NCBI RefSeq assembly: GCF_023716485.1 | Contig: NZ_CP092418.1 | Span: 2,959,001 to 3,023,000 of the forward strand | Length of the DNA stretch: 64,000 nucleotides | Reading direction: 5' to 3' | Source of the DNA: Microbulbifer variabilis | GTDB lineage: Bacteria > Pseudomonadota > Gammaproteobacteria > Pseudomonadales > Cellvibrionaceae | Shown here: positions 29,225-62,884 of the stretch, piece by piece | Position numbering within the stretch: position 1 is the stretch's first letter | How the letters are laid out: each line of letters opens with the position of its first letter | The notes under the pieces: model-generated | Seen by the model: the letters and a program-made list of their open reading frames with translations, nothing else | What the model was told of the DNA's origin: nothing | Database searches by the model: none | Program-made: the position numbers and the translations under genes

Positions 29225-29341
29225 TAATTGAAACCTCCTGCGCACTAGATCTCAAATCGAACTCAACACATTATCAAACCATGCTCCTGAGCACATTTAC
29301 AAACCCAACACAGGATCTTTTAAAACGATTAAGTTTCATTA

Positions 29342-30730: not shown

Positions 30731-30818
30731 CCCTATAAATCCCTCAGCAATTCTGCAATCCATTCGGATAGATTCGCAGCTTCCTTCACTTTCATCACAT
30801 GGTCTTGCACTTCAGTGA

Positions 30819-32201
30819 CTACCCGCCTTCCCGCTCTGGAATTCTAGGAGCGCTCATAAACATGAAAGCAACAACAAAGCCCACAAAAGCAAAACAAGCG
30901 TTTACCTCAAATGCCAAGCTAATACCCGATGTGATATCTGGAGAGAAACCCAATATGGCCGCATTTACACCAAGCCCTACCGCTCCACCGGTAATTTTGA
31001 GCATATAAATAATAGCACTTGCTAAACTAGCGCGGTTGGGATTTACAACCGCAATAACCATTGTGGTTGTCGAGGGGTTAAACAGCCCCAGGCCAGCGCC
31101 TAATATAATCAGCCCTAAGATGTAGTTATACCCTTCTCCCAGCCTGGACAAGTAAAACATCCCCAGGCTCATGCCCAAAATTCCAACACATACCAATATT
31201 TTCCCTCCGGTACGCAAATATAATTTACCTGCAATAAAGGACATCATGCCAAAAGCGACCATCATGGGTACCAGGGACAAGCCGGACTGAATAGTAGAGA
31301 AACCCCGCACATTGGTTAAGTATTGTGGCAAATACAAGATCACGGAAAAAAAAGTTACGGAGGTAAAAAGGGTAACAGCTCCTGCGGCAAAGAATCGCTT
31401 ATTCTTAATGATATCCTGAGGTATCAGGGCGAAATCTCGCTCTTTTGTTTCAATCAGTACAAAAGCAACCGTAAACAGAAGAAAGGAGGTTAATAACCCC
31501 ACTACCAAGGGATTCATAAAGCCATTTTCAGAAGCGAAATTTAAGGCCAAGAGAAAACTTAACAAAGAACCCGTAAGGGTCAAAACCCCCAAATAGTCAA
31601 TTTTTTCGTTTGGGTCATAAGGTATATCTATCGGGATATATTTCCAGCACATATAGACCGCCGCAGTAGCGATGGGCAAGTTGAAAAAGAATAGCCAGCG
31701 CCAACTCAGTAGATCTGCCAACACTCCCCCCACTACTGGCCCCAAAGTATTGGCAAGACCGCAGATGGCCATAATTAATCCGCCGGTTTCCCCTGCGCGT
31801 TCTTCTGGCATAAGGTTGTAAGCCATCCCCAGAATTGATGGCCACATTAAGGCGGCCCCAATACCCATTGCAGCCCTGGCAGCCAACAGCATTGGAACAT
31901 TTACAGCTAGCCCTCCGAGTAGGGAAAAGATAAGGAATATACACGCACCAATGATGAAGGTACGGCGCCGCCCAATAATGTCGGCAATACGGCCACCGGT
32001 AACAACCATTACCCCAAAAACCAGCCCATAGCCATTAATTACCCACTGTGAAGTGGTAATATTCATATTCATCTCCCTTTCTATGGCGGGAATCGCCGGG
32101 GAGAATGCACTGATATCAATGGCAATGATAAATAGGGCAACATAAATGGCTAATAGGCCTAAACGGTTTGACTGCTGGGTAGGCTCCTGCATATGTGCCA
32201 T
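30819..32201 (-). CDS. DHA2-type MFS exporter, paralogue 3 of 3 (promoter-proximal)
   Basis: About 460 residues, 14 predicted helices, with GGRIADIIGRRRT, GPVVGGVLADLLSWRWLFFF and LFNPSTTTMVIAVV. The ATG at 32201 (MAHMQEPTQQSNRLGLLAIY) matches the paralogues best; a start at 32264 is open but would add an atypical 21 residues. It is the first of the three tandem exporters. No regulator or biosynthetic gene is linked to the cluster, so the exported compound cannot be named. Confidence 0.88.
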   Translation of the reverse strand: MAHMQEPTQQSNRLGLLAIYVALFIIAIDISAFSPAIPAIEREMNMNITTSQWVINGYGLVFGVMVVTGGRIADIIGRRRTFIIGACIFLIFSLLGGLAVNVPMLLAARAAMGIGAALMWPSILGMAYNLMPEERAGETGGLIMAICGLANTLGPVVGGVLADLLSWRWLFFFNLPIATAAVYMCWKYIPIDIPYDPNEKIDYLGVLTLTGSLLSFLLALNFASENGFMNPLVVGLLTSFLLFTVAFVLIETKERDFALIPQDIIKNKRFFAAGAVTLFTSVTFFSVILYLPQYLTNVRGFSTIQSGLSLVPMMVAFGMMSFIAGKLYLRTGGKILVCVGILGMSLGMFYLSRLGEGYNYILGLIILGAGLGLFNPSTTTMVIAVVNPNRASLASAIIYMLKITGGAVGLGVNAAILGFSPDITSGISLAFEVNACFAFVGFVVAFMFMSAPRIPEREGG

Positions 32202-32451
32202 AAATGGTACCAGCTTCAGAAACTCCAATTTGATTGTTAGGCCAGGGGAGTTCGACCACACCATGCAATACGCTAATCTATCGCAGATTCGATTTTTTAT
32301 CCTAAAACCTGATTACAAAAACCGGTAAGCTTGAAAGGGTCACCCAAAACCGTTTCTTTTGGAGTGCCACAAAGGGTACTACTTAAGCTTAGTTGAGTTT
32401 ACTCAGCTAAACTCCAATGTATTTAGCAATCTAAATAGCAGAGTTGTGATA

Positions 32452-38973: not shown

Positions 38974-39540
38974 ATGTCCCGTTACATCGAATCCGAACTT
39001 AAACCCTTCAACGCCAAAGCCTACCAAAATGGCGAGTTTCACGACGTCAGCGATGCCGATGTCAAAGGCAAGTGGGCGGTATTCTTCTTTTACCCCGCCG
39101 ACTTCACCTTTGTTTGCCCCACCGAGCTGGGCGATCTGGCCGACAACTATGAAGAGTTCAAGAAGTTGGGAGTGGAGATTTACTCCGTATCCACCGATAC
39201 CCACTTCACCCATAAAGCGTGGCACGATTCCTCTGAAACCATCGGTAAGATCCAGTACCCGATGATTGGTGATCCCACCGGCACTATCACCCGCAACTTC
39301 AGCGTAATGATTGAGGAAGAAGGTATCGCAGACCGCGGCACCTTTGTAATTGACCCGGAAGGCCGTATTCAGATCGTTGAGATCACTGCAGGTGGTATTG
39401 GCCGCGACGCCAACGAACTGCTACGTAAAATCAAGGCCGCCCAGTACGTGGCCGAACACCCCGGTGAGGTATGCCCGGCCAAGTGGAAGGAAGGCGAGGA
39501 AACCTTAGCCCCGTCTCTCGACCTGGTAGGTAAGATTTAA
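38974..39540 (+). CDS. ahpC: Alkyl hydroperoxide reductase subunit C (peroxiredoxin), copy 1
   Basis: A 188-residue typical 2-Cys peroxiredoxin that reduces H2O2 and organic peroxides in the cytosol, recycled by AhpF. The peroxidatic Cys is in [12 protein letters not shown] (C48) and the resolving Cys in [11 protein letters not shown] near the C-terminus; length is exactly that of the family. The ribosome site AAGGAG is ideal. A second gene at 49088 encodes a protein differing at only nine positions, but here no ahpF follows; it is monocistronic with a terminator-like hairpin behind it. Confidence 0.97.
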
Positions 39541-39713: not shown

Positions 39714-40781
39714 CTAGTTCTCCCTACTTTTGATGATACGATCGCACTCGGATAATAACTGAATAGCCAATAATGATTCATCCATAGGAGCTTGAGGGCA
39801 TTCAGTGCGTCCTGCAGAAATACAGCGTTGTACCGCTGCAGCCTCATAAATGAGCCCCTCTGAACTTGGAAAGTTAAATTCCCCCTGAATACTAGGGAGA
39901 TGGAAAACCTGTGTTTCAACAACATTTTTTGGATTACGGCGGCTTCCACCGTACTTAATTAATGAAAGACATGTTGGACTATGCGCGGGGGCTTGCACTC
40001 TAATCCGACCTTTCGACCCATATATATCCATCTCCTCCGCACCTTCATATAAAATGCTCCAGGTTGCTATTGCTGTTGATGACCCTTCAAAATGGATATG
40101 CATTGCGCCTGCGGCCACTTGCCCAAAACCATAGCCATCAATTACTCCAGCACAGTCAGCTTCTTTAATATTACTTCCACCAAATATTAAAGCTTGATGA
40201 ATAGGGTAAACCCCAGCATCGAAGCTGCCTCCTGTTTTCCAGGTTGGCGAATTTAATCCTTCATCACGCTTTAGGTCAAAACTTAAATCTGCTCTAACTT
40301 GCTGGACCTCTCCGATATCACCACTTTCAACTATTTTTCGTGAGTATTCAATTGCTGGAAAGAAACGCATCCACATAGCCTCACTACAAAACAGGCCTTT
40401 TTCCCTGGACAGAACTTTTATTTTAACGATATCTTCTACAGAAAGAGCGACTGGCTTTTCAATAAAGACATGTTTTCCTGCATTTAGAGCCAAAATGGCA
40501 TGTTCAGCATGAGACTCTGTTGTGGTTGCGATATAGACTATATCTACAAGAGGGTCACTCACCAAGTTTGCATAATTCCCATAATATCTTTTAGCCCCAT
40601 GCAATATTGCAAATGCCTGCGCACGGCCAATATCCCTTGCCGCAACTGCATAGACTTGGGCTGACTCAAGAAAATTCAGCACCAAGGCAAAGTCGTTTGC
40701 AATTTTCCCACAACCAATAAAACCCCACCTATACACCCGCTCACTTTCCATAGGTAGATTATCCATAGGCGATACAACCAT
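39714..40781 (-). CDS. Gfo/Idh/MocA family NAD(P)-dependent dehydrogenase
   Basis: About 355 residues. The Rossmann domain begins RWGFIGCGKIANDFALVL and contains IVYIATTTESHAEHAILALN and the family EKP motif HVFIEKPVALSVED. The C-terminal substrate domain includes FDAGVYPIHQALIF (the conserved D/G-x-x-x-x-H step). Such enzymes oxidise or reduce hydroxyls of sugars and cyclitols with NAD(P). It is homologous along its length to the C-terminal third of the fusion protein at 45433-48789 (shared MWMRFFPAI, RADLSFDL and DAGVYPIH blocks), so the two may act on related intermediates. The start is one of three ATGs (40781, 40766, 40751); a much longer open frame upstream looks non-coding. Confidence 0.87.
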   Translation of the reverse strand: MVVSPMDNLPMESERVYRWGFIGCGKIANDFALVLNFLESAQVYAVAARDIGRAQAFAILHGAKRYYGNYANLVSDPLVDIVYIATTTESHAEHAILALNAGKHVFIEKPVALSVEDIVKIKVLSREKGLFCSEAMWMRFFPAIEYSRKIVESGDIGEVQQVRADLSFDLKRDEGLNSPTWKTGGSFDAGVYPIHQALIFGGSNIKEADCAGVIDGYGFGQVAAGAMHIHFEGSSTAIATWSILYEGAEEMDIYGSKGRIRVQAPAHSPTCLSLIKYGGSRRNPKNVVETQVFHLPSIQGEFNFPSSEGLIYEAAAVQRCISAGRTECPQAPMDESLLAIQLLSECDRIIKSREN

Positions 40782-41107
40782 ACCCGACGCGGATGTATAT
40801 AGGCTCACTGGGTTTATCTCCAATAAAATTGTTAAACACCAGTGTAATGAAAAAGAGGGATGTACCGCCAAACAAACGTGGCAGAGCTCAAAGGTTGAAG
40901 CAATCCAAGACTGCGACCAATTAGTCACCGAGTTAAAATGACAGTTTTTAATGACCCTTGGCTGACTTTTAAATAACACCTTTTAGGAGATCTTAATTCT
41001 TATAAGGGTAGGTAGTAGCTATAGCAATATTTCATTAATCGAGATATTCAACCAACACAATATACTTACCTCCAGTACTACACCTTAATTAAATTAATCA
41101 AACCATC
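40782..41107. other. 326-bp divergent intergenic region
   Basis: Lies between the divergent Gfo/Idh/MocA and GST genes. The frame of the former stays open across much of it, but the reading lacks family similarity. Promoters for both genes must lie here; none was identified with confidence. Confidence 0.4.
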
Positions 41108-42102: not shown

Positions 42103-43677
42103 TCAATCCAAATTGAGCTGACTATCTACACCTATAGCATTAATAAAACTCAGATCATGTGAGACCAATAAGACAGCACCAGAAAAATCCATAATGGCAT
42201 TTACTAATAGCTGGCGGGAATCCAGATCCAAGTGATTATCTGGCTCGTCTAGCAGTATCAAGTCTGTGGCAATGGTGCCCCGTGTAACGGCAAGTAATGC
42301 CACTTTTAGTTGCTCCCCTCCACTTAGGAGCCTGAGAGGCAGCAGCGGCGTATCTCCCCTTAGCCGCAAACTACCTAGCATGGTACGCCATTCAGATTCT
42401 TTTCTACCGGGGTGAAGATAGAAAAGATTCTCTAAGGCGGATAACTCTTTATTGAGAAAACTGAAGCCCTGGTCTAAATAACACAAACTTCCACGAGTTT
42501 GGCAGACGCCACTTAGAGCTTTTAGCTGACCAGCTATGACCTTTAGCAGAGTGGATTTTCCACTACCATTGCCACCCGCTATCCTCCAACGTTCCCCCTT
42601 GCGGACTGTTAAAGATATAGGCTTATCATGAGAACCATATGGGAGCTGCAAATTTTCAAGATGTAATTGTATTGACTTGCGAGAATCACACTTAGTGAGG
42701 GATAGCTTTTGCGGTCTTAGTCTCTGTGACTCAATTACTGTTATTTTACTTATTTCCTCTCTTTTTTTCTCTAACTGTAACTGGCGCTGCTCTAACTTTC
42801 GCTTTAATTTTCCAAGACCTTTCCCTGCGCGATCTTTTTGTGAGTCCATAAGACTCTTACTTTGAGAGTTCCGCTTGCCTTTTCCCTGCCGTTGTCTAGT
42901 AGCGAAATTATGCAGACTTTTCTGCCTGACATTATTTAGTTGGTTGAACTCTTTTCGATTATCCTCTGCCCTTTGGAGCAGGGCTGCTTGCTCTGATTCT
43001 TTTTGTTGCATATACGCACTGTATGCGCCGCCATAGGTTTTCAATCCTCGCTGATAAATCTCTATTATTTGTCGGACATTTTCCAGCAGCTCTACATCAT
43101 GACTGGCGACCAGTGCCCCTCCTGCATGATTTAAGATTTTCTCTTGCAGCCACTCCCGCCCACTCTGATCAAGATGATTGCTAGGCTCATCTAGCAGTAA
43201 GTAGTCACTTGAGAGAGAAAATGCATAGGCAAGGCTTAACTTGGCTCTCTGACCACCACTCAATCGTTCTATCGGCGTATCCAATGGCGCATTGATTTTT
43301 GCTTCCTCTAGCTGGCGCTGCCAAGTAAGAGGCAGATGCCAATAGTCCGCAACGGATATCAGGTCATCCTCTGATGCATGCCCTTGCTCTACCCGTAAAA
43401 AAACTTCATACAAATGGCCATCTGCAAGACAATCGACGATCCGCAAATCAAGTCGGGGATTAAGCTGTTTCACCAGATGATGGCGTCTTCTCCAAGAGAC
43501 CTTACCACCAGTAACGGAAGCTTGACCGTGAAGAACACTTAGTAGTGTGGATTTCCCGCTGCCATTAGGTGCAACTAATCCAGTGATTCCAATAGGTAAT
43601 TCCAAGCTTACTTTATGGAAAATCGGGGTGTCCCCAAATATCAGGGAGATGTTTTCAAGAGTACAAATAGCTGTCAT
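42103..43677 (-). CDS. ABC-F family ATPase (duplicated ATP-binding cassette, no membrane domain)
   Basis: A 524-residue soluble protein with two ABC cassettes. The start at 43677 has a GGAGGG site 4 bp upstream; an ATG 81 bp earlier is open. Cassette 1 has the Walker A GLVAPNGSGKSTLL, signature LSGGQRAKLSLA and Walker B YLLLDEPSNHLD. Cassette 2 has GGNGSGKSTLLKV, LLSGGEQLKVALLA and LILLDEPDNHLD. A highly charged linker (about residues 240-330, rich in Lys, Arg and Gln) joins them. ABC-F proteins act on the ribosome; some protect it from antibiotics. Placement inside the cyclitol module makes self-protection conceivable, but housekeeping translation factors of the same family look alike. Confidence 0.9.
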   Translation of the reverse strand: MTAICTLENISLIFGDTPIFHKVSLELPIGITGLVAPNGSGKSTLLSVLHGQASVTGGKVSWRRRHHLVKQLNPRLDLRIVDCLADGHLYEVFLRVEQGHASEDDLISVADYWHLPLTWQRQLEEAKINAPLDTPIERLSGGQRAKLSLAYAFSLSSDYLLLDEPSNHLDQSGREWLQEKILNHAGGALVASHDVELLENVRQIIEIYQRGLKTYGGAYSAYMQQKESEQAALLQRAEDNRKEFNQLNNVRQKSLHNFATRQRQGKGKRNSQSKSLMDSQKDRAGKGLGKLKRKLEQRQLQLEKKREEISKITVIESQRLRPQKLSLTKCDSRKSIQLHLENLQLPYGSHDKPISLTVRKGERWRIAGGNGSGKSTLLKVIAGQLKALSGVCQTRGSLCYLDQGFSFLNKELSALENLFYLHPGRKESEWRTMLGSLRLRGDTPLLPLRLLSGGEQLKVALLAVTRGTIATDLILLDEPDNHLDLDSRQLLVNAIMDFSGAVLLVSHDLSFINAIGVDSQLNLD

Positions 43678-44239
43678 ATGCCCTCCGATCATAGGACCGT
43701 GCGGCGTATTTCTGCTATCAGCCAAGATAGGTGTTTGAGGAAGATACGCCACCTGCAAAGGATTGATTAGGTCCGCAGCGATAGAGTGCGAACTTAGTTC
43801 CAGTTATGCGCAGGGCTTAATTCATCGGCGTAAATGACTCCGGACAAGATATTAGATTAGTATTTCCCAAGGCGTGGGCATCTATTAAAGGCGCTTAGCG
43901 TAATTAATATGCCAATATATTTCAAGCACTATTTGCAAACCAATCAACTTAGATGATACCTACTATCCTAGCGGTTAGAGTAACCTAACATGCTTCTCCA
44001 TCGAGACTTGGTACTGAACACTGCGCCACCAATCCGACCATCTAGTAGCTTTCTAAGTCTCAACTTGTAGGAAGGGGGTACCTTAACAACCCGCCAGTAT
44101 TTTCGTTCAAACCACTCTCTTATAGTCAGACTGATTCATCTGTAAGTGAATGGTTAGGATTAAATAACCCTGCACATTAAGAATTTCAACGGGTTAACTT
44201 TCTTTCTGAGCCATAAAGGTAATATGGATTGTCAGGAAC
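43678..44239. other. 562-bp intergenic stretch
   Basis: No supported gene. On the minus strand about 44130-43970 a 54-codon stretch without stop (around ERKYWRVVKVPPSYKLRLRK) could be a remnant, but it has no start, no ribosome site and no recognised family. Confidence 0.35.
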
Positions 44240-45436
44240 TTACCGAGACTTTACCAACCTCTCAATAAAGGCTACCAGTGTGCAGAAAACAATCCCCGCC
44301 AGAAGAAATACTGGAACTATATAGATAGCAGTTTGTATACCATAATTCTCATCCAGCCATCCTACTAAGGCATGGGCAAATATCAAAAACACGCCCCCCA
44401 TTCCAAGAGAAAATGAAACAGTAAACGGTGGATTTCTTGAACTACGCGTCAACCACTCCATCGTATAGGGAAAAAGGTAAGATAGAGTTAGACCACATAC
44501 AGGCAACCACAAAGGATTAACCCAATAACCAAGAAGAAATACAACTGCTGTTGATACAAAAGAAATTATCAACCAAATAAATGCACTACCCCTTAGAAGG
44601 ATGAAGGTAAAAAATATCCTTCCAATACACAGCAGGCCAAAAAAAATTGAAAGTAAAACATCTGCCTCAACAGCCCATGGACCACCCCTTGCATCAAGAA
44701 ATAACACAAGTCGACTAGCAAGGATGTGTTCAGATCCATTATATGCAGAAACAATTAACCCACCCCCAATTGCAATCCACCATTCTTTTGGCTCTTTATC
44801 TCGTTTACTGTTTTCTCGATAAGCACTGGGATCAAAGTCCCCACCTCCTGTTTGATGCCTTCTTTTTCTTCTGAATAAGCCGACATAAATATATAGAAGA
44901 ATGACAGCAGCAAGTACGCCAAATAAATAGAACCCCCCTTCCCAGTCAAAATGATACTTATAGGATAATGCAGGTATTAAGGGAGATAGTATCGATGCAA
45001 CTCCATAGGTGCTATGCAACCCACAATATCCTTGACGCGCGAGATCTTGAGGAACAAAAAGAGGGATTGCTACATTAATCAGTACCATACAGCCCCCTGC
45101 TCCCATTCCAAAAATAAAACTTCCTAAAATAAGAGTGGGAAAGGAATGATAATAACCAGAAACTCCCGATAGTATTGAGCCAACCCCCATAAAAGCGACA
45201 AATAACCCCAAACCCGATATCACTCTAACTCTCTTTACCCATAAAGATCCTGATAGAGTCATTAATAAGGCAGAAAAAGTAGACAAAAAGAAAAAGGTAG
45301 AACCCTTAGAAGGGGTTACAGAAAAGTAATCCAAGATTTGAGGATAAATTGGCGCCTTATAAACCTCTATAAAACCTAGAAGAAATAGCGCTCCATAACA
45401 GGATAACAATCCAAACCAATAGATCTTTTGCTTCAC
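44240..45436 (-). CDS. MFS transporter coupled to the cyclase fusion gene
   Basis: A 398-residue, 12-helix major facilitator protein with a central charged cytoplasmic loop (FRRKRRHQTGGGDFDPSAYR, about residues 188-207). The N-terminal half has FIFGMGAGGCMVLINVAIPL and the C-terminal half LSIFFGLLCIGRIFF, a pattern like FucP-type sugar/small-molecule porters; no closer assignment can be made. Its start overlaps the stop of the cyclase fusion gene by 4 bp (ATGA), which ties its synthesis to that enzyme. It is inferred to move the fusion product out of the cell, or a precursor in. Confidence 0.85.
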   Translation of the reverse strand: MKQKIYWFGLLSCYGALFLLGFIEVYKAPIYPQILDYFSVTPSKGSTFFFLSTFSALLMTLSGSLWVKRVRVISGLGLFVAFMGVGSILSGVSGYYHSFPTLILGSFIFGMGAGGCMVLINVAIPLFVPQDLARQGYCGLHSTYGVASILSPLIPALSYKYHFDWEGGFYLFGVLAAVILLYIYVGLFRRKRRHQTGGGDFDPSAYRENSKRDKEPKEWWIAIGGGLIVSAYNGSEHILASRLVLFLDARGGPWAVEADVLLSIFFGLLCIGRIFFTFILLRGSAFIWLIISFVSTAVVFLLGYWVNPLWLPVCGLTLSYLFPYTMEWLTRSSRNPPFTVSFSLGMGGVFLIFAHALVGWLDENYGIQTAIYIVPVFLLAGIVFCTLVAFIERLVKSR

Positions 45437-48400
45437 GCAGCTCTTCTTTTAATATAGTGATCGCACTCTACAACCATCTGAATCGCTCGCACGGAGTCTG
45501 CTAGAGGAAGCTCCGGGCACTCAATTAAACCTTTCTCCAAACATTGCTGCACAGTCCGAGCCTCGTAGTATAGCCCCTCAGAGTTGGGATAATTAAATTT
45601 ACCCCTAATTCTCGGCAGCGGGAATTCATACATCTTAGAAACATTATTCGATCTTCTATCGCCTGAAATTCTAGTTGTTGAAATCTTTGTTGGACAATGC
45701 GCCGGCGTAAAAATTTTTATCCTGCCTTCAGTTCCATAGATCTCCAACTCTTCTGCTCCCTCCACCAGATGACTCCAAGAAACAACTGCAGTAGATCCAG
45801 AATTAAAGTGGGCATAAATCAGTCCGGCTCCATCTTCCTTAAATCCATGATCATCAAGTACCCCGGAGAACTCCAGATCTGATGTATCCCGACCCAGCAT
45901 CATCAACGCTGCATGTATTGGGTATACCCCGGCATCCAAACCTGCCCCAACTTTCCATTTAGGAGATTGAAGCCCTTCGTCCATGAGTAAATCAAAACTC
46001 AAATCAGCCCGTAGCTGACAAACATCCCCAATGCCACCGGAAGTTATAATGCTTCTGCAGTGTTGTATAGCTGGAAAGAATCTCATCCACATACCTTCCA
46101 TGCAAAAAAGCCGCTTTTTATTGGCAAGATCCTTAATCTTTTGGGCATCTTCGACGGTCAGCGCTATAGGTTTTTCAATCAGTACCGGCTTCCCTGCCCT
46201 TAAAGCCAATTCAGCATGCTGTCGATGCAACTCGGGAATAGTCGCAATATAGACAATATCGACTTCTGGGTCAGAAACTAATTCCTGGTAATCTCCATAT
46301 GCTCGACAGACTCCATGCTTACCTGCAAAATCTTTAGCCCGCCCAAAGTCCCTAGAAGCCACAGCATGAATTTCTGCAGATTCCAGATAATTGATCACTA
46401 TGGCAAAATCATTCGCAATCCTTCCACAACCAATAAACCCCCAACGTAGCTTTTGGGGAGAGACCCTCTCTGGAGTATAAACATTCGCTATTTCTACGTC
46501 CTCAATCAGCCCCTCTTCATCTTCTATAGTATCGGGATCTAATACGAGTTCAGGGTGGTAGTAAAGCCTCTCTTGCAGGCTATTCCAGGCACCCTCAAGA
46601 TGTTTACCCTTTATTTTGTTCACCCATATGCACCTTCCGAGAGGTGCAGGTAGAGGCGCGCGTAACGTTCCTGAACGGTGGATTGAAATCTGTTTAATTG
46701 CCGTTTTGTATACATCCAGACTCAGCCCCTTCACACTAGCGGAAAGTCCCAGATTCACGTAAATGTCAAACAGCAATTTAACTTCTGCCTTAGATATCAA
46801 TCCCATCTGTTCAGCAACCAGTGAAGTAAATAGGCAATCAATACCCACAGCTTCACCATGCATCAACCTAAAAGCCTCATCACGTTCCAACCATCGAGAT
46901 AGCGTATGTCCAAAGTCCATTGGCCTAGATAAGTTCTCCTCTTTTAAATCTCCCGCAATACTGTCAAGCATTGCATCGATACAATTTATTAATAATTTAT
47001 AGGATGCTTCTCCCGGGAGCCCATCAGGTCCCAGAAATTTATTTTCTAATAATGATGCACCTTGGGCTGACAATGTATCGAGTACATTTCTATTAAATAC
47101 CACGCCAACCTTGATCATTTCACCAATCGCGCTTTTCAGCACTCGCTGTGGATTAGTTTTTAAGAAGGTTGGATCAATTATTGTGTGCAAAGGGCTATGA
47201 AAAGCACCTATCCCATTTTTGATGTTGTGGTTTACACTAACCTTAATACCGATAGATGAGTCAATCATGCCCATTAGAGTGGTTGGGATACGTATCCAGG
47301 GCGTATTACGTCGCCATACCGCACTGACAAACCCTATTGTATCCGTTACCGCTCCCCCCCCGATAGCTACAATTGGCTCCCTATAACGAAGAGGGTTGAC
47401 CTTCCATATTTCATCAATCATTTTTAAAAGACTGTCAATATTTTTTGACTGCTCACCGCCCTTCATAACAATTGGAATAAATTTAACCCCAACAGACTTT
47501 TCCCACGCAATGATAGATTTTTCATACAAACCCCAAACCTTGTCATCAACACAACAAATAATTCTGTTCTTTGGGGGCCTTAAGAGCTCAATAAGAAACC
47601 GATTGCCGAGGTCAAACAGCCCGTGGTGATACCAGATTCTCTGATTTGTAGGGGCCTGACAAATAGTGTCTGAAACTTGGACAATAGAGTGATGGTTTTC
47701 GTCTGCTCGCACTTGAGCCTTGATACTAGGCTCAATCAATGTGGCTAACTCAAGTACACTGCATGCATGATTTAACCGCGGTAGCCGCTGGTATTTTTCA
47801 TTATCATCATCCAAGATAGATTCAATGAAAAGCCTCTTCAAATCACGATAATCTTGTTCAAATAAATAGCAATACCATATAGCCCCCTTTTCCTTTCTTG
47901 TAAGTTCAAGCGCGCGATCAAGCCTATCCGGCATAGCTTGTCGAATGAAAATCGGCCTGCCCCTGAGCCCTTTCCGCATCACTATACAGTTTTCTACACC
48001 TTCACAACGGGTAGCCAGAAAGGAGAAACTGATTCCCAAGTTGGTTTTTAAAGTAAAAGATAGCTTTTTGAAATCCTCAATATCACCAAATTGCTTCTGT
48101 GCCGTCTCATCCTGATTCACCACTACATCCACAATGTTGTGGGGGGCTAGATTCCACTTTGCGACACAAAGCTCAAGCTCATGGCAGCATTGGTTAAGTA
48201 ACATACCTTCGGCATTTTGCCTGAAGATGCTTTCCAAATTAGCTTCTGGATGTGGATTGTGATGTATAAATCCCACACTTCTGGACTTTAACTGCCATTG
48301 TTCATTAATTCTCTCAGCTTCGCTGACGTAGCTGGCGATATGCTTCTGATAGCCTATAACAACATTTACATGCTCCTCACCAGCACGTCTCTCCATGTCA

Positions 48401-48789
48401 CGCAATTTTTCCAGTGAGTCGGCGCCAGGTTTTTCCAGGTAGATATTTCTATACCCTTTGCCTACTACAAAATCAAAAATCCTTTTCGTTGATTGAGTTC
48501 TAACTGAAATCAACACCAAACTTTTATGGGAAAGATTTGCCTTAGGTAATTGTTCTAAAGAGGAATAGAGTTTGAAGTCACCAAATTGATCTTTGAGCCT
48601 TGCCATCTCCTCATGAAATGCCATCCCTTTTTTAGAAGACGAAACAGCAGCAGACAGCCAGTGCTGCTCAACGATGGCATCTACTACGACATTAGGCATA
48701 CTCATCAACTGAGAAAGATGCAGCCATCCGATTGACTCCCCTGGCAAGCCAACACCAATCACGATGACATGCACCACATTTTGGTTCAT
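45433..48789 (-). CDS. Trifunctional fusion: Gfo/Idh/MocA dehydrogenase - sugar phosphate cyclase - Gfo/Idh/MocA dehydrogenase
   Basis: An 1118-residue protein in three parts. Residues 1 to about 370: Gfo/Idh/MocA-like dehydrogenase (VIVIGVGLPGESIGWLHL; EKP motif in NIYLEKPGADS near 118). About 380-770: a dehydroquinate-synthase-fold sugar phosphate cyclase, with IVAIGGGAVTDTIGFVSAVW, RIPTTLMGMIDSSIGIKVSV, KNGIGAFHSP, GEMIKVGVVFN and MHGEAVGID. In RPMDFGHTLSRWLE an Asp replaces the Asn of dehydroquinate synthases, and HRSGTLRAPLPAPLGRCIW replaces the DKK region; both fit C7-cyclitol synthases such as 2-epi-5-epi-valiolone synthase. About 782-1118: a complete second dehydrogenase (RWGFIGCGRIANDF, VLIEKPIALTVED, DAGVYPIHAALM). 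It probably cyclises a sugar phosphate such as sedoheptulose 7-phosphate and then oxidises or reduces ring hydroxyls. The first domain is the most diverged and may be inactive. Confidence 0.86.
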   Translation of the reverse strand: MNQNVVHVIVIGVGLPGESIGWLHLSQLMSMPNVVVDAIVEQHWLSAAVSSSKKGMAFHEEMARLKDQFGDFKLYSSLEQLPKANLSHKSLVLISVRTQSTKRIFDFVVGKGYRNIYLEKPGADSLEKLRDMERRAGEEHVNVVIGYQKHIASYVSEAERINEQWQLKSRSVGFIHHNPHPEANLESIFRQNAEGMLLNQCCHELELCVAKWNLAPHNIVDVVVNQDETAQKQFGDIEDFKKLSFTLKTNLGISFSFLATRCEGVENCIVMRKGLRGRPIFIRQAMPDRLDRALELTRKEKGAIWYCYLFEQDYRDLKRLFIESILDDDNEKYQRLPRLNHACSVLELATLIEPSIKAQVRADENHHSIVQVSDTICQAPTNQRIWYHHGLFDLGNRFLIELLRPPKNRIICCVDDKVWGLYEKSIIAWEKSVGVKFIPIVMKGGEQSKNIDSLLKMIDEIWKVNPLRYREPIVAIGGGAVTDTIGFVSAVWRRNTPWIRIPTTLMGMIDSSIGIKVSVNHNIKNGIGAFHSPLHTIIDPTFLKTNPQRVLKSAIGEMIKVGVVFNRNVLDTLSAQGASLLENKFLGPDGLPGEASYKLLINCIDAMLDSIAGDLKEENLSRPMDFGHTLSRWLERDEAFRLMHGEAVGIDCLFTSLVAEQMGLISKAEVKLLFDIYVNLGLSASVKGLSLDVYKTAIKQISIHRSGTLRAPLPAPLGRCIWVNKIKGKHLEGAWNSLQERLYYHPELVLDPDTIEDEEGLIEDVEIANVYTPERVSPQKLRWGFIGCGRIANDFAIVINYLESAEIHAVASRDFGRAKDFAGKHGVCRAYGDYQELVSDPEVDIVYIATIPELHRQHAELALRAGKPVLIEKPIALTVEDAQKIKDLANKKRLFCMEGMWMRFFPAIQHCRSIITSGGIGDVCQLRADLSFDLLMDEGLQSPKWKVGAGLDAGVYPIHAALMMLGRDTSDLEFSGVLDDHGFKEDGAGLIYAHFNSGSTAVVSWSHLVEGAEELEIYGTEGRIKIFTPAHCPTKISTTRISGDRRSNNVSKMYEFPLPRIRGKFNYPNSEGLYYEARTVQQCLEKGLIECPELPLADSVRAIQMVVECDHYIKRRAA

Positions 48790-48995
48790 AGGGGCGATCT
48801 CATATCAAATCTAAGCCATCCAGGCTCACATGAATCCGAGTTACTTCTTTAACTCATTGCTAACGTCCTCCCATTTAGACTCCAAGTCTTTTCTGTTCAT
48901 GAGCCTGTAACGACAAGGCTACATCAGCCAACTGGCGCCTTCCCCTCCCCTAAAAACCAATGATCGATTGGGAAAATTTATTAGAAGTATTTATA

Positions 48996-49036
48996 TTGAT
49001 AATTTTTATTAAAAGAAATGAATCGATAGTATCAAT
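48996..49036 (+). promoter_or_regulatory. ahpC-2 upstream block shared with ahpC-1 (candidate OxyR site)
   Basis: TTGATAATTTTTATTAA followed at the same 30-bp offset by ATAGTATCAA, the counterpart of the block before ahpC-1. Combining the two copies gives a perfect dyad TTGATAA-N3-TTATCAA. It lies about 50-90 bp before the start codon, a position suited to an activator. Confidence 0.5.
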
Positions 49037-49087
49037 GCCGTTCCAAAGACAAAGACTGAATAGAAAGTGATGAATAAGGAGTTATCC

Positions 49088-49654
49088 ATGTCACGTTACA
49101 TCGAATCCCAACTAAAGCCCTTTAACGCCAAGGCCTATCAGAATGGCGACTTCTTCGATATGAGCGACGCCGACGTAAAGGGCAAGTGGGCGGTGTTCTT
49201 CTTCTATCCCGCAGACTTCACCTTTGTGTGCCCCACCGAGCTGGGTGATCTGGCGGACAACTACGAAGAGTTCAAAAAGTTGGGTGTGGAGATCTACTCC
49301 GTATCTACCGATACTCACTTCACCCACAAGGCCTGGCACGACTCTTCCGACACCATCGGTAAAATTCAATACCCCATGATTGGCGACCCTACCGGCACCA
49401 TCACTCGTAATTTCGGAGTGATGATCGAAGAAGAGGGCATTGCCGATCGCGGCACCTTTGTCATCGATCCGGAAGGTCGTATCCAGATTGTGGAGATCAC
49501 AGCCGGCGGAATAGGCCGCGATGCCAGTGAGCTGTTACGCAAGATCAAAGCGGCCCAGTACATCGCCGCTCACCCTGGAGAAGTCTGCCCTGCTAAGTGG
49601 AAGGAAGGTGAAGAAACCTTAGCGCCCTCCCTCGATCTGGTAGGCAAGATATAA
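49088..49654 (+). CDS. ahpC: Alkyl hydroperoxide reductase subunit C (peroxiredoxin), copy 2
   Basis: 188 residues, nearly the same protein as copy 1: nine substitutions (for example H23F, V25M, S110G, E161A), both catalytic Cys retained in FTFVCPTE and GEVCPAKW. The two DNA sequences differ at many third positions, so this is an old duplication kept under selection, not a fresh copy. The ATG at 49088 has an AAGGAG site; an ATG 21 bp upstream is in frame but lacks one. ahpF follows 77 bp downstream, so this copy is the one in the standard ahpCF operon. Confidence 0.97.
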
Positions 49655-52586: not shown

Positions 52587-54116
52587 ATGCTACTAAGAAC
52601 AAAATGTGCCATTGCCACATTACTACTGATGCCTTTCAGCTTGCAGGTTCAAGCTCACGGCTGGTCTGAATACCCAAAGGCGAGGCAAAAAATATGCTAT
52701 GACCAAGGGAATGTCTGGTCTGGAACTCCCCCAAATCCTGGCTGTGCATTAGCAAAAACCATCTCTGGGTCTTATCCATTTCAGCAACACAATGAATTTT
52801 CCATCAACATTCCTGACTACAATAATTTTACGGCCGTAAAAGCAGCCATTCCAGATGGAACACTCTGCTATGCCAATGACCCACAAAAAAAGGGCATGGG
52901 TGCAGCTACAAACACTTGGAGCCGAGTTGAAGTTAACGCTGGAACTTTTGAATACGTATTCAATGCAACCGCACCGCACAACCCCTCTTTTTGGCAGTTT
53001 TATCTAACCAAGCCCAACGCTGACCTTTCAAAGCCTCTCGCCTGGGATGACTTGGAGCTTATTCAGGAAGTGGGCGATGTGCCAGTTGTGAATAGCCAAT
53101 ATCGAATGAATGTTACGATCCCTCAAGACAGGGTAGGCAATGCGATTTTATTTGTACGCTGGCAACGAGTAGATGCAGCGGGGGAAGGTTTCTACAATTG
53201 TAGTGATATCACCATTGTAAATGGTGATGTTCAACCGCCTACCGAACCTGATCCGGGTACAACAGAGCCATACCTTAGTCAAGGCAACACCTTTATCCCG
53301 CAGGATATTAATATCGATTCAGTAGCTGTAGGGGATACTGTCAATTATACGGTCTTAAATAAAAATGGTGAGGAACACTCATCGTTTTCATTAGCAATTA
53401 CTGAGGACAATAAAAATGATTGGGATAGACTGCTAGCATCTCAAGTTACTGGCTGGTATCAATCCAATCACAATGGAAATGTCTTTATCGGTCGCTGGCA
53501 TGAGGAAATGAACCATTACATGTATTTCCAAGGCGATTTGCATGGCAACTATTTTAACTCTAAAGATGCACGCGCTTCAGGCCAGTTCAGTATCACAAGT
53601 AATGGCAGTGAATTGATTGCGTCTATTACGCCCAAGGTGTTAAAGCCTCTCGACATAGCCAAGGTCGAGCACGGTGAATTACTGGTGCTCTCTACAGGAG
53701 AAAGCACAGGAAACATCACAGATACCCAATGGTCACAAGTGAGTGGCAGCCCAGTGGAAACAGCAGCCGGGCCGAGTGGTGCATTGGTTATTGACACTTC
53801 AAGTTTAACCAATGCCCGACACGAGTTGAGTTTTAAGTTAACCGTAAGTAGTAGTTCTGCCAATGATGACGAGGTCTACTCCTTTGTCGTTGAACCCTCG
53901 ACACCCACAGATCCTACAGATCCTACAGATCCTACAGATCCTACAGATCCTACAGATCCTACAGATCCTACAGATCCCACTATTCAAACCTGGGACAGTA
54001 ACCAAATCTACACTGCTGGGGACACGGTAAGCCATAATGGTAAAACATGGACTGCCGGATGGTGGACCAGGGGTGAAGAGCCAGGCACAACCGGGCAATG
54101 GGGTGTTTGGCGCTAA
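52587..54116 (+). CDS. Secreted AA10 lytic polysaccharide monooxygenase with CBM5/12
   Basis: A 509-residue secreted enzyme. The signal peptide (1-23, ending VQA) leaves His24 as the mature N-terminus (HGWSEYPKARQKICYDQGN), the first ligand of the copper brace; the second is the His in NATAPHNPSFWQF (about 131), and EGFYNCSDI supplies the axial aromatic. This catalytic domain (24 to about 215) is the AA10 fold acting on chitin or cellulose. A middle domain (about 230-435) of unclear family follows, then a linker of eight T-D-P triplets, and a C-terminal carbohydrate-binding module CBM5/12 (YTAGDTVSHNGKTWTAGWWT), typical of chitin binding. Chitin oxidation is therefore the best guess. It is monocistronic with its own terminator. 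Confidence 0.92.
   Translation: MLLRTKCAIATLLLMPFSLQVQAHGWSEYPKARQKICYDQGNVWSGTPPNPGCALAKTISGSYPFQQHNEFSINIPDYNNFTAVKAAIPDGTLCYANDPQKKGMGAATNTWSRVEVNAGTFEYVFNATAPHNPSFWQFYLTKPNADLSKPLAWDDLELIQEVGDVPVVNSQYRMNVTIPQDRVGNAILFVRWQRVDAAGEGFYNCSDITIVNGDVQPPTEPDPGTTEPYLSQGNTFIPQDINIDSVAVGDTVNYTVLNKNGEEHSSFSLAITEDNKNDWDRLLASQVTGWYQSNHNGNVFIGRWHEEMNHYMYFQGDLHGNYFNSKDARASGQFSITSNGSELIASITPKVLKPLDIAKVEHGELLVLSTGESTGNITDTQWSQVSGSPVETAAGPSGALVIDTSSLTNARHELSFKLTVSSSSANDDEVYSFVVEPSTPTDPTDPTDPTDPTDPTDPTDPTDPTIQTWDSNQIYTAGDTVSHNGKTWTAGWWTRGEEPGTTGQWGVWR
53908..53979 (+). repeat. Eight tandem 9-bp repeats coding the TDP linker
   Basis: The unit ACAGATCCT is repeated eight times with one change at the very end (ACAGATCCC), encoding eight TDP triplets between the middle domain and the CBM. 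The near-perfect DNA repetition shows recent expansion by slippage; unit length is a multiple of 3, so the frame is always kept and only linker length varies. Confidence 0.95.
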
Positions 54117-58420: not shown

Positions 58421-59851
58421 ATGCAAACGATCAAAACGAAATTTAGAGTTACCAAGTGGCGATTAAAGTCATTAATCCTAGCCACTTTATTGACTTCCAA
58501 CGCTATGGCCACTGACATTGAAGGCGACTGGAGATCGATGCTTAAAACAAATGATGAGAAGATAATACCAATAGTGATTCAACTAGAGGAGAATAGCGGT
58601 GAATGGACTGGCGTATTAAATAGCCCATCTTTGGAGGAAATGAAATTAGACATTACGGGGCTGGAGGTTATAGATAATAGAATTGTTTTCGAGGTAGAAG
58701 CCCTAGATATCAAATACGAGGGAAGTTACATTAATCAGGTAGACCTAATCGCTGGTGCAAACATTAAGAAAGGCGCATCATCTCTTACATTTTTTAGCAG
58801 AATAAATGACCATATTGATGGTTCTAGCAATCATTCGCAAACACAAAAAAAATCTACTCCATATATTATTGAAGATGTCAATTTTAAAAATAAAGAGACA
58901 AGCAATCTAATTTCGGGAACTTTAACCAAGCCAGTATCCAGAATTAAAGCAACGGCTGTTCTTATCAGTGGTAGTGGTCCCCAAGATAGAGATGAATCTC
59001 TTTTTGGACATAAACCTTTTGCCGTAATAGCCGATCACCTAACCCGGCAAGGATATGCAGTATTACGCTACGATGACCGAGGCGTTGGTGGATCTAGTGG
59101 CAGCTATCAAACAGCAACTACAAAAGACTTCGCAAGTGACACCAGTGCAGCTGTTGACTATTTGAACAGCCGTAGCGACCTACCTCAGGGTAAAACTGGC
59201 TTAATTGGCCACAGTGAAGGCGGTATGATAGCTCCTATGGTTGCCAGTAGGCGTGATGATATTGCATTTGCCATTTTACTTGCTGGGCCTGCAGTTAAAA
59301 TACCAACTATGCTTGCTGATCAGTGGTACCGTGGTCGTAAATTTAATGGTTTATCCGAAGAAATATTAAGCAAACTCAAAGAGTTAGATAAGGAAATCCT
59401 AGAAAAAATTGGCAATCTTGAATTAAATGAACCGCTTAATGATGCCATTCAGGATCTTATTTATTCCAGCATCAGGCTTGAGGGGGTGCCCGAAGAAGAC
59501 ATAAATACCCAATTTGAAGAGGTAAAGAAAGAGTACTCTCTTTTGATATTTCGTGATTACTTAAAGTTCAATCCAGAATTCTATTTAGAACAAATAAAAG
59601 CTCCGCTATTGGCTCTAAATGGTTCTTTAGACTTTCAAGTTGATGCAAAAATGAATTTAGGTAATATACAATCAGTGTTAAATAGAACCGGACATAAAGA
59701 TTTTACGGTCATTGAACTTGACAGAATGAATCATCTTTTTCAAATAGCTAACAAAGGTTCAAGTACTGAGTATGCTGAAATAAAAGAAAGCTTTTCGCCA
59801 AAAGCATTACATGTAATTTCTAAATGGTTAAACGAACGATTCAAAATCTAG
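58421..59851 (+). CDS. Secreted alpha/beta hydrolase (serine aminopeptidase-like), duplicate 1
   Basis: A 476-residue exported protein. After a basic start and signal peptide (LILATLLTSNAMA) comes a beta-rich domain (about 32-150, DIEGDWRSMLKTNDEKIIPI), then the alpha/beta-hydrolase domain: AVLISGSGPQDRDESLFGH (oxyanion region), nucleophile elbow GLIGHSEGGMIAP (Ser about 265), Asp in LALNGSLDFQVD and His in ELDRMNHLFQIA, a full catalytic triad. Such enzymes cleave esters or short peptides; substrate unknown. It has a closely related neighbour at 60303. Confidence 0.85.
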   Translation: MQTIKTKFRVTKWRLKSLILATLLTSNAMATDIEGDWRSMLKTNDEKIIPIVIQLEENSGEWTGVLNSPSLEEMKLDITGLEVIDNRIVFEVEALDIKYEGSYINQVDLIAGANIKKGASSLTFFSRINDHIDGSSNHSQTQKKSTPYIIEDVNFKNKETSNLISGTLTKPVSRIKATAVLISGSGPQDRDESLFGHKPFAVIADHLTRQGYAVLRYDDRGVGGSSGSYQTATTKDFASDTSAAVDYLNSRSDLPQGKTGLIGHSEGGMIAPMVASRRDDIAFAILLAGPAVKIPTMLADQWYRGRKFNGLSEEILSKLKELDKEILEKIGNLELNEPLNDAIQDLIYSSIRLEGVPEEDINTQFEEVKKEYSLLIFRDYLKFNPEFYLEQIKAPLLALNGSLDFQVDAKMNLGNIQSVLNRTGHKDFTVIELDRMNHLFQIANKGSSTEYAEIKESFSPKALHVISKWLNERFKI

Positions 59852-59866
59852 ATTTGACTAGAATTT

Positions 59867-59895
59867 ATGGCTCCAATTTGGGAGCCATTTTATTA
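59867..59895 (+). terminator. Intrinsic terminator after hydrolase 1
   Basis: ATGGCTCC and GGAGCCAT form a stem around a short loop, followed by TTTTATTA. The same stem sequence recurs after the second hydrolase gene, so the terminator was duplicated with the gene. Confidence 0.8.
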
Positions 59896-60302
59896 CATTC
59901 AAACGAAATGCTATTTAAAAAAATCAAATCGAGTGGGTATACTTAAATTAACCTAAAGATTAAAATATATTGGGAAAACCTTATAGATATTGATAATAAA
60001 CGCCCCATACTGGAGCTGATAATTAGTAAACCCTCAAAGATCTATCGGCCGACTAATTCCCTTATAGAGAGATCGATCACAGCAAAACTAGAATACTTTG
60101 CACCCTAGTCTCAAGTCTGTGGTCAACCACTTTATGAGCAAGATATCTGTTTGAATTTCCTATTCAGAGTAATCCTAGACCGCTCATCGCCCCTCCCTAC
60201 CATTCATCCCCTCAGGAAGCCACTCCTACTAAATTTATAACACCAGGCTAATCGACAGGTAGAATATCAACCATTCAACAAGTAGGTACAGGAAGAGTAC
60301 AA
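59896..60302. other. About 400-bp intergenic region between the duplicated hydrolases
   Basis: No gene. AT-rich; the distal 130 bp are the diverged counterpart of the leader before hydrolase 1, and presumably carry its promoter. Confidence 0.45.
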
Positions 60303-61730
60303 ATGCAGCCTATCAAAACACTCTTTGCAGAAGCCAAGTGGCACTTGAAAACAGTAATCCTCACAACTGGCTTAATATCAACCAATGTAATGGCTTCAGG
60401 TTTAGAGGGGGATTGGAGGTCCGTAGCCCAGATTAATGGTGAAAAGAATATACCTGTAGTCATTCACCTGGAAGAAGATAACGGTATGTGGAAAGGCTCC
60501 TTAGATAGCCCTTCCCTTGGGGCTAAGGGAGTAGAAATATCTATGCTGGAAATCCGGGACAGCAGTATCACTTTCGAAGTAGAAGACTTACAGATTAACT
60601 ACAAAGGCACTTACAGTGCAGCAGTTGATCTTGTATTTGGGTTTATCAGCCAGGAAGTGACATCCCCTCTGAACTTTAGCCGGGCATCTGAAGATGCAAA
60701 GAACAGGACTAGCAATCGACCCCAAACACCAAAGGGCCCATTTCCGTATGCTATAGAGGAAGTAAGCTTTAAGAATGCTGCGACAGGCAATATCATTTCG
60801 GGAACACTGACCAAACCAAAGTCTAATATCAAAGCAACTGCTGTTCTTATCAGTGGTTCTGGGCCTCAAGACCGGGATGAAACCCTGTTTGGCCATAAGC
60901 CATTTGCGGTAATCGCCGATCATTTGACACGGCAAGGATATGCAGTATTTCGTTATGACGACCGCGGTATTGGCGGCTCAAGTGGTGACTTTCGAGCAGC
61001 CACCAGCAAGGATTTCGCCAGTGACGCCAACGCAGCTGTAGATTATTTAAACAGCCGTAAAGATCTCCCAAAGGGTAAAGTTGGATTAATAGGACACAGC
61101 GAAGGCGGTATGATAGCTCCCATGGTTGCCAGTAGTCGAGATGATATTGGATTTACCATCTTACTTGCTGGACCTGGAGTTAAAATACCTGAGCTACTGG
61201 TTGATCAGTGGCACCGAAATCGTAAGTTCAATAACTTACCTGAACAAAATATGCAAAGACTTAGCCAGTTAGATAAGGAGATTTTTGAAAGAATTGCTCA
61301 ACTCGGAATGTATGAAAGTCTTAATGATGAGATTCATGAGCTGCTTTATGAAAGCGTGAAGCTCGAAGGCGCTCAGGAAGAGGAGTTGGATGCTCAGGTT
61401 GAACAACTAAAGAAGCAGTATACTACTCCTTGGTTCCGTTATTTTGTTAAGTTCAATCCTGAACCTTATTTGAAACAAACAAAGTCACCACTTCTGGCTC
61501 TTAATGGCTCACTTGATTACCAGGTTGATGCAAAAATGAACCTAAGTAATATACAATCAATATTGAGCAGCGCTGGACATAAAGACTTTAAAACTATCGA
61601 GCTGAATAAAATGAACCACCTTTTTCAAATAGCCAATAAGGGCTCATTTTCAGAGTATGCCGAACTAGAGGAGAGCTTTTCACCTGTTGCCCTCGAAGTG
61701 ATGTCCTCATGGCTGAATGAACGCTTCTGA
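60303..61730 (+). CDS. Secreted alpha/beta hydrolase (serine aminopeptidase-like), duplicate 2
   Basis: 475 residues with the same layout as its neighbour: signal peptide ending near NVMASG, beta domain from GLEGDWRSVAQINGEKNIPV, then AVLISGSGPQDRDETLFGHK, GLIGHSEGGMIAPMVASS (Ser about 265), LNGSLDYQVDAKMN and LNKMNHLFQIANKG. The catalytic triad is complete in both. The two proteins are alike over their whole length but diverged enough (for example in the region about 290-370) to have different substrates. It is followed by a sensor kinase gene 65 bp downstream. Confidence 0.85.
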   Translation: MQPIKTLFAEAKWHLKTVILTTGLISTNVMASGLEGDWRSVAQINGEKNIPVVIHLEEDNGMWKGSLDSPSLGAKGVEISMLEIRDSSITFEVEDLQINYKGTYSAAVDLVFGFISQEVTSPLNFSRASEDAKNRTSNRPQTPKGPFPYAIEEVSFKNAATGNIISGTLTKPKSNIKATAVLISGSGPQDRDETLFGHKPFAVIADHLTRQGYAVFRYDDRGIGGSSGDFRAATSKDFASDANAAVDYLNSRKDLPKGKVGLIGHSEGGMIAPMVASSRDDIGFTILLAGPGVKIPELLVDQWHRNRKFNNLPEQNMQRLSQLDKEIFERIAQLGMYESLNDEIHELLYESVKLEGAQEEELDAQVEQLKKQYTTPWFRYFVKFNPEPYLKQTKSPLLALNGSLDYQVDAKMNLSNIQSILSSAGHKDFKTIELNKMNHLFQIANKGSFSEYAELEESFSPVALEVMSSWLNERF

Positions 61731-61752
61731 TACTTGATAAGAATGTCAAGAC

Positions 61753-61782
61753 ATGGCTCCTAATTTAGGAGCCATCTTACTT
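61753..61782 (+). terminator. Terminator-like palindrome between hydrolase 2 and the kinase gene
   Basis: ATGGCTCCTAA and TTAGGAGCCAT form a perfect 11-bp inverted repeat followed by a short T-rich tract (CTTACTT). It lies 14 bp before the kinase start, so it may also act as a read-through attenuator for the two-component genes. Confidence 0.65.
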
Positions 61783-61795
61783 AGATATATGTGCA

Positions 61796-62881: not shown

Positions 62882-62884
62882 GAA

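Follow-up and report, generated by a model that had tools for sequence, protein, structure and literature searches.

A three-domain cyclase fusion in Microbulbifer

We analyzed a stretch of 64,000 nucleotides (hereafter the window) from Microbulbifer variabilis, probably a marine bacterium (NCBI RefSeq assembly GCF_023716485.1, contig NZ_CP092418.1, positions 2,959,001 to 3,023,000). It codes for a single protein, P0001, in which a sugar phosphate cyclase is flanked on both sides by dehydrogenase domains of the Gfo/Idh/MocA family. Its phylogeny and active-site residues set the cyclase apart from the dehydroquinate synthases (DHQS), and it groups with cyclases of marine algae. We marginally favor the hypothesis that the protein makes a cyclitol in several steps, with the cyclase and two redox domains on one chain and a product that would be exported by a transporter of the major facilitator superfamily (MFS).

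The first-pass annotation of the window had read here a frame of 1118 codons in the order dehydrogenase, cyclase, dehydrogenase, and this arrangement proved to be real: it lies on the minus strand and is intact and conserved in four genomes (Table 1). A frame artefact is ruled out by the intact frame in these four genomes and by purifying selection in all three domains. The ratio of nonsynonymous to synonymous substitutions (dN/dS, Nei-Gojobori method) was estimated at 0.063 for the N-terminal domain (one computable genome pair), 0.052 and 0.078 for the cyclase (two pairs), 0.056-0.081 for the C-terminal domain (three pairs) and 0.27-0.63 for the linker between the latter two (three pairs); dS was 1.1-3.2 in the computable pairs and the remaining pairs were saturated. 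Linker residues 757-769 have a predicted local distance difference test score (pLDDT) below 50 in the predicted structure.

The complete fusion was identified in 4 of 48 Microbulbifer genomes, our own included, and the other three copies are 81% (G029), 77% (G031) and 72% (G021) identical to it. The first-pass annotation had also called for a database search for the same domain order, and here 16 of 55 proteins of similar length that match the cyclase part (P0001-P0016) were found to combine this type of cyclase with at least one Gfo/Idh/MocA domain. P0001 is joined by seven fusions with cyclases that are 81-91% identical, six of which are labelled Microbulbifer, and by eight from public assemblies with cyclases that are 53-55% identical. 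The C-terminal part is longer than 300 amino acids in 14 of the 16 fusions, and P0002 stops within it.

A profile of the N-terminal domain retrieved only the known Microbulbifer loci, in 3 of 390 genomes of the order, 1 of 398 of the phylum and 1 of 321 of the class, with our own genome counted each time. A scan of genome contigs yielded six loci, every one related to the C-terminal domain only; the viral contigs gave no match, and none of the plasmid records reached 80% coverage of a fusion query. Among other sugar phosphate cyclases, seven are fused to a ROK-type kinase domain (PF00480; P0018, P0020, P0022, P0023, P0026, P0027 and P0030), two to an epimerase-type domain (P0031 and P0032) and one, from a eukaryote, to inositol-phosphate-synthase domains (P0021). 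Because such fusions to other enzymes exist, being fused does not by itself set this cyclase apart.

The cyclase forms a clade with proteins of marine algae

Membership of the middle domain in the sugar phosphate cyclase superfamily is clear from its Pfam scores (DHQ_synthase, 105 bits against a cut-off of 24; DHQS_C, 65 against 28). The closest solved structures are ValA, a 2-epi-5-epi-valiolone synthase (EEVS; PDB 4p53), and Ava_3858, a desmethyl-4-deoxygadusol synthase (DDGS; PDB 5tpr), with the dehydroquinate synthases far behind. In a search of cyclases of single-domain length, of which we considered the best 120 of 3187 matches, the top matches were 41-47% identical and the other cyclases 30-36%. 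The top matches are not known bacterial cyclases, and all those that carry an organism name come from marine algae. Among the matches listed, these are the pelagophytes Aureoumbra lagunensis and Chrysophaeum taylorii, the haptophytes Calcidiscus leptoporus and Haptolina brevifila (the latter by its taxid) along with a Prymnesium sp., and the dictyochophyte Octactis (formerly Dictyocha) speculum. Wherever a label is visible for these named copies, it says no more than "dehydroquinate synthase domain" or "hypothetical protein." The motif MD[FY]GH[TS][FL]SR is present in 81 of the best 120 matches, one of which (P0127) is a fragment of a fusion.

Two trees were inferred. A quick tree of 104 rows contained 24 algal-type rows (about every third sequence longer than 360 amino acids plus four named ones, with partial rows left out), and a careful tree of 61 rows was obtained by removing 43 long-branched and redundant rows. 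The fusions and the algal-type cyclases formed one clade in both. In the careful tree, its support was 100/100 and its stem measured 0.85 changes per column; in the quick tree, its support in the Shimodaira-Hasegawa-like approximate likelihood ratio test (SH-aLRT) was 100. In the longer algal-type proteins, the cyclase is preceded by a region that contains a conserved DKRRxDE...GQGAVKR pattern and that gave no Pfam match in P0060, P0091 and P0017, and some of these proteins start like plastid-targeted ones, as judged by eye.

The first-pass annotation had placed the cyclase outside the dehydroquinate synthases and proposed a phylogeny against the known classes, and the first of these claims is upheld by the approximately unbiased (AU) test, which rejected nesting with four DHQS (p-AU 0.001) and with five DHQS (p-AU 0.015), as well as by the curated aroB model, which scored 192 bits against a cut-off of 305. 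Grouping with 2-deoxy-scyllo-inosose synthase (DOIS), a label taken from the annotations of two plasmid records, was likewise rejected (p-AU 0.0006). The attachment of the clade to the remaining classes is less settled. It was separate from the ValA clade in both free trees, and forcing the two together gave a tree that was 20.7 log-likelihood units worse (p-AU 0.096). In the free tree, it fell outside the clade of two cyanobacterial DDGS, to which it was sister with an unsupported 84/19.

Active-site residues point to a substrate without a carboxylate

The residues were surveyed in 40 clade members, namely the 16 fusions and the 24 algal-type proteins. The metal ligands E557, H628 and H644 are present in all 40. 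At the three positions where all six DHQS have Lys, Asn and His, the clade has Met607 (39/40), Asp625 (40/40) and Arg632 (39/40); Lys at the first of these was found in 8 of 8 DHQS and DOIS sequences, and Met in ValA and Ava_3858. Two positions discriminate ValA from Ava_3858, and at both of them all 40 members have the Asp (D625) and His (H704) of ValA (287 and 366 of the ValA chain) and not the Ala302 and Thr381 that we read as DDGS-type from Ava_3858 alone. We take these two sites to be published EEVS fingerprint sites. A set of 14 active-site fingerprint residues of ValA is mentioned in the part of PMC4426668 that we consulted. The first-pass annotation had read the Asp at 625 as part of a pattern of EEVS, 2-epi-valiolone synthase and DDGS; D625 and H704 are EEVS-like, and the free tree places the clade outside those of ValA and of the two cyanobacterial DDGS.

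The Arg at position 632 had been called unusual, and it does differ from the Pro in ValA (294) and Ava_3858 and from the His in DHQS and DOIS; Pro is found in 39 of 54 other cyclases, ValA among them. With its presence in 39 of the 40 members, the residue is therefore not peculiar to one protein, but a clade marker common to the fusion and the algal enzymes. The DHQS His at this position touches the substrate phosphate, and by analogy Arg632 could act likewise. Asp614 is present in all 40 members, where ValA, Ava_3858 and 52 of the 54 other cyclases have Asn, and W492, W498, G526, H535 and M624 are further clade-specific residues.

In the reaction that we propose, the middle domain, with NAD and a divalent metal as its most likely ligands, would convert sedoheptulose 7-phosphate, or a close carboxylate-free heptulose phosphate, into a phosphate-free C7 keto-cyclitol. 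The ring would be closed by oxidation, phosphate elimination, reduction and aldol addition, the sequence established for DHQS and EEVS. Because of the residues and the kinship of the cyclase, we consider this class of substrate quite probable. A different ketose phosphate, such as an octulose or a modified heptulose, would lead to a ring outside the known C7 cyclitol types, and the length of the stem that leads to the clade (0.85 changes per column) and the clade-wide changes at or near conserved motifs (R632, D614, W492, W498 and H535) could be taken as hints of it. Yet the metal ligands and the tested residues for a substrate without a carboxylate match those of ValA and no positive sign of another substrate was seen, so that we regard such a substrate as unlikely.

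The flanking dehydrogenase domains

The C-terminal domain passes the Gfo/Idh/MocA Pfam cut-off and has the Rossmann glycine motif, the EKP motif and the fold of the family. It resembles mammalian dimeric dihydrodiol dehydrogenase (E 5e-50), with which it has ME-x-x-W-x-RFFPA, EKP and D-x-G-x-Y motifs in common, and both K873 (15/15) and Tyr956 (14/14) are invariant among the fusions that cover these positions. The N-terminal domain is far more divergent, sharing no more than about 12-16% identity with its best matches, and the domain in P0001 has no Pfam match at 0.001. Its model has the two-domain fold of the Gfo/Idh/MocA family, and a standalone relative (P0175) passes the Pfam cut-off for the family with 39.7 against 24 bits. 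The motifs comprise G12-x-G-x-x-G17, E41 at the end of beta-2, E119-K120-P121, GYQK at 146-149, HHNP at 176-179 and N199-x-x-x-H203-E204; EKP is kept in 11 of the 15 fusions that cover it and NxxxHE in 13 of 16.

An Arg after the second beta strand of the C-terminal domain (Arg813; 15/15) and a Glu at the matching place of the N-terminal domain (Glu41; 11/15) suggest, from general knowledge of the Rossmann fold, that NADP(H) binds at the former site and NAD(H) at the latter. The C-terminal domain, probably NADP(H)-dependent, would act next on the ring ketone or a neighboring hydroxyl, most likely as a reductase, while the N-terminal domain, probably NAD(H)-dependent, may oxidize or epimerize another ring position where its motifs are kept. 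We consider it probable that the C-terminal step takes place, and lean slightly towards an active N-terminal step. The channelling of intermediates that the first-pass annotation had inferred may or may not accompany these steps. Three active sites are likely in Microbulbifer. They are not universal among the fusions, as P0013, P0015 and P0016 have lost the motifs of the N-terminal domain and P0010 has altered ones.

These losses lead to a possible but doubtful alternative, in which only the cyclase and the C-terminal dehydrogenase are active enzymes and the N-terminal domain is a structural or regulatory pseudo-enzyme. In the three fusions, GxGxxG, EKP and the His are gone and the region is about 40 residues shorter than in P0001, whereas the motifs of the cyclase and the C-terminal domain are kept. 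The lack of a Pfam match in P0001 and the finding of just one standalone relative of the domain among 3036 length-matched candidates are consistent with this alternative. On the other hand, most fusions have retained NxxxHE and EKP, the same motifs are found in the standalone P0175, and the dN/dS of the domain was 0.063 in its one computable pair.

Genomic neighborhood of the fusion gene

Table 1. Coordinates in the window of the fused protein, its domains and the neighboring genes.
Feature	Position	Strand	Remarks
Fused three-domain protein P0001, 1118 aa	45433..48789	-	Frame also intact in G021, G029 and G031
Residues 1-372, divergent Gfo/Idh/MocA (inositol-dehydrogenase-like) domain	47674..48789	-	Standalone relative P0175
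Residues 376-750, sugar phosphate cyclase; metal ligands E557, H628, H644; D625, R632, H704	46540..47664	-	
Residues 751-776, fast-changing, low-confidence linker	46462..46539	-	dN/dS 0.27-0.63 where computable
Residues 777-1118, dihydrodiol-dehydrogenase-type Gfo/Idh/MocA domain; K873, D952, Y956	45436..46461	-	
MFS transporter gene, proposed exporter	44240..45436	-	Shares its first 4 bp with the 3' end of the fusion gene; 4/4 genomes
ABC-F protein between the MFS gene and the paralogue	42103..43758	-	
Standalone Gfo/Idh/MocA paralogue	39714..40979	-	57% identical to the C-terminal domain of the fusion
Second ahpC copy, left flank	38974..39540	+	
ahpC copy beside ahpF, right flank, divergent from the fusion gene	49067..49654	+	

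In all four genomes, the fusion gene and the MFS gene are located between two ahpC copies and are divergent from ahpC-ahpF; the two ahpC copies in the window are 86% identical over 300 nucleotides. Among frames of at least 150 amino acids, partly judged by eye, the fusion and the MFS gene are the only ones between the copies in three of the loci, while the window adds the genes for the ABC-F protein, a GST-like protein and the Gfo/Idh/MocA paralogue. Since the sequence retrieved around the other three loci gave no match to the ABC-F protein, it is probably not part of the fusion unit. The paralogue has a counterpart in G021 and none as close in G029 and G031. Because it branches inside the clade of C-terminal domains of the fusions (91/95; the paralogue was entered twice in this tree, as PARA_G000 and DH_L002), it is likely to be a duplicate freed from a fusion. 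The product of the synthase may be exported by the MFS protein, for which we consider the chances to be evenly balanced.

Among open reading frames (ORFs) of at least 150 amino acids between the ahpC copies of the four loci, partly judged by eye, no methyltransferase, ATP-grasp ligase, sugar kinase, aminotransferase or non-ribosomal peptide synthetase was recognized. On these grounds, we rejected the reading that the fusion gene is part of a classical cluster.

The content between the ahpC copies changes from genome to genome. Just 0.2-0.35 kb separate the two copies in G035 and G045 and about 1.9 kb in G030 and G044, which in G030 code for a 2OG-Fe(II)-oxygenase-like protein and an ORF with no Pfam match. 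Two copies are present in G041 as well, and in G021 an additional, third copy, which is partial, adjoins the Gfo/Idh/MocA paralogue. The ahpC pair looks like a hotspot for insertion or exchange and, because of the changing cargo, the link to peroxide defense may be one of place only.

This bears on another hypothesis, in which the known 2-epi-5-epi-valiolone is made and then oxidized by the C-terminal domain to a gadusol-like antioxidant or UV screen that is tied to peroxide defense via ahpC and ahpF. D625 and H704 are EEVS-like, the best match of the C-terminal domain is dihydrodiol dehydrogenase, an enzyme that oxidizes ring diols, and in all four loci the fusion gene and ahpC-ahpF are divergently oriented. 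Moreover, an EEVS and a protein with methyltransferase and NAD-dependent oxidoreductase parts produce gadusol in vertebrates, according to the part of PMC4426668 that we consulted. Against this, no methyltransferase was recognized between the ahpC copies of the four loci, whereas a Nostoc DDGS has one adjoining, and related genomes have different cargo, or nothing, at the ahpC site, so that the neighborhood may be a mere insertion site. We therefore consider a gadusol-like product to be quite improbable.

The A+T-rich block at 48790-49066, upstream of ahpC and between it and the divergent fusion gene, is conserved in the four loci. A likeness to OxyR half-sites, judged by eye, was given no weight. 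Promoter-like sites numbered 16, with a shuffle mean of 20.8, and are thus not in excess.

Weighing the proposed synthase

Sequence comparison and structure models show the domain folds, the class of the cyclase, the intact motifs, the conservation and the steady pairing with the MFS gene in four genomes; the substrate, the export and the order, direction and partners of the redox steps are inferred. Several observations weigh against a multi-step synthase of a separate cyclase type. The AU test did not reject a basal position of the clade relative to all other non-DHQS cyclases (p-AU 0.30), although the free tree places it higher, above a 98/95 branch, and the grouping with the ValA clade was not rejected either. 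Domains and motifs are not uniformly kept. Besides the three fusions with eroded N-terminal domains, P0010 (805 amino acids) stops before the C-terminal domain and therefore lacks it, and has EEP at the place of the N-terminal EKP, while the C-terminal Asp952 is replaced by Asn in 8 of 14 rows. Inositol dehydrogenases have a D-x-x-x-H catalytic pair, in place of which the N-terminal domain has N199-x-x-x-H203. The cofactor preferences are read from single residues, and the full-length model, with a predicted template modeling score (pTM) of 0.64, does not define how the active sites face each other. Finally, the MFS frame in G029 ends early, with its C-terminal end in another frame, and the link to the transporter is known from one genus.

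The biosynthetic routes to acarbose, validamycin, gadusol and the mycosporine sunscreens all begin with a sugar phosphate cyclase. A further cyclase clade in marine algae would point to an undescribed marine cyclitol, and the fusion would place the cyclase and its tailoring dehydrogenases on one chain. Substrate, product and redox partners could then be read from one purified bacterial protein, and the product would hint at the algal one. More speculatively, the clade might be an unrecognized cyclase class common to marine algae and a few bacteria, with a bacterial protein that combines cyclization with two opposite redox steps, an N-terminal oxidation with NAD and a C-terminal reduction with NADPH, so as to relocate or invert a ring hydroxyl. 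Enzyme and exporter would then make up a complete pathway to a novel C7 cyclitol, one that the algae also begin to make, but we consider this extended scenario tentative and rather unlikely in its entirety.

The first-pass annotation had named an existing characterization of the same fusion as a point that would count against it. We found no description of either the fusion or the algal clade by title and start of abstract in the open-licence literature of PubMed Central (PMC), a scope outside which most subscription papers fall, and the haptophyte and pelagophyte clade is not mentioned in the consulted parts of PMC4426668 and PMC7826186.

Other features of the window

A drop in G+C content coincides with a pair of transposase copies at 23607-24385 and 24605-25389, which resemble each other and are both split over two frames; the first matches an IS4/5-type DUF4096 and the second was judged by eye. 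Three similar MFS transporters of about 470-480 amino acids are encoded in tandem at 27836-32264 on the minus strand (the first confirmed in Pfam), and single ORFs like these were seen by eye in the G021 and G029 stretches. The protein encoded at 52587-54116 has an LPMO_10 domain, a CBM5/12 module, a weak match to GbpA_2 and a PTD repeat that joins them, and is probably involved in chitin degradation. Lastly, two similar alpha/beta hydrolases in tandem (the first confirmed) are followed by a LytS-like His_kinase and a LytTR response regulator at 58421-63601.

Comparison with known systems

ValA is a standalone enzyme of 420 amino acids in its PDB record, with Pro where the fusion clade has Arg632, and Ava_3858 has Ala302 and Thr381 where the fusion has Asp and His. 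An O-methyltransferase gene adjoins the DDGS gene in Nostoc, whereas none was recognized between the ahpC copies at the fusion loci. AroB belongs to the same superfamily and has the same fold as the fusion cyclase, but it has Lys, Asn and His in place of Met607, Asp625 and Arg632, and a separate AroB-like gene is present. EboD likewise represents an uncharacterized clade of the superfamily, but is part of a six-gene cluster, according to the consulted part of PMC5133447, and no six-gene ebo set was seen between the ahpC copies at the fusion loci. The N- and C-terminal domains have folds like those of the inositol dehydrogenases and dimeric dihydrodiol dehydrogenase, respectively, of which the known ones are separate enzymes. 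Other cyclase fusions, such as those to ROK-type domains (PF00480), also join a cyclase to an enzyme domain, but with more distant cyclases and different partners.

In vertebrates and green algae, EEVS and MT-Ox carry out a cyclase step followed by a dehydrogenase-type step, as proposed for the fusion, and in vertebrates the pathway consists of two genes, but the redox domain of MT-Ox is fused to a methyltransferase and not to the cyclase (PMC4426668 and PMC7826186, for the parts consulted). In the same sources, the green algal EEVS is placed with that of vertebrates (PMC7826186), and the EEVS beside MT-Ox in Aureococcus is a different stramenopile cyclase (PMC4426668). The uncharacterized haptophyte, pelagophyte and dictyochophyte cyclases P0060, P0091, P0092, P0094, P0103 and P0134 are 42-45% identical to the fusion cyclase. 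Unlike the fusion, the two of them that were scanned, P0060 and P0091, lack a dehydrogenase domain and have at the N-terminus a stretch without annotation. Like the fusion, all six have the MD[FY]GH[TS][FL]SR motif, and P0060, P0091, P0092 and P0103 in the 61-row tree, and P0094 in the quick tree, fall within the clade of the fusion cyclases.

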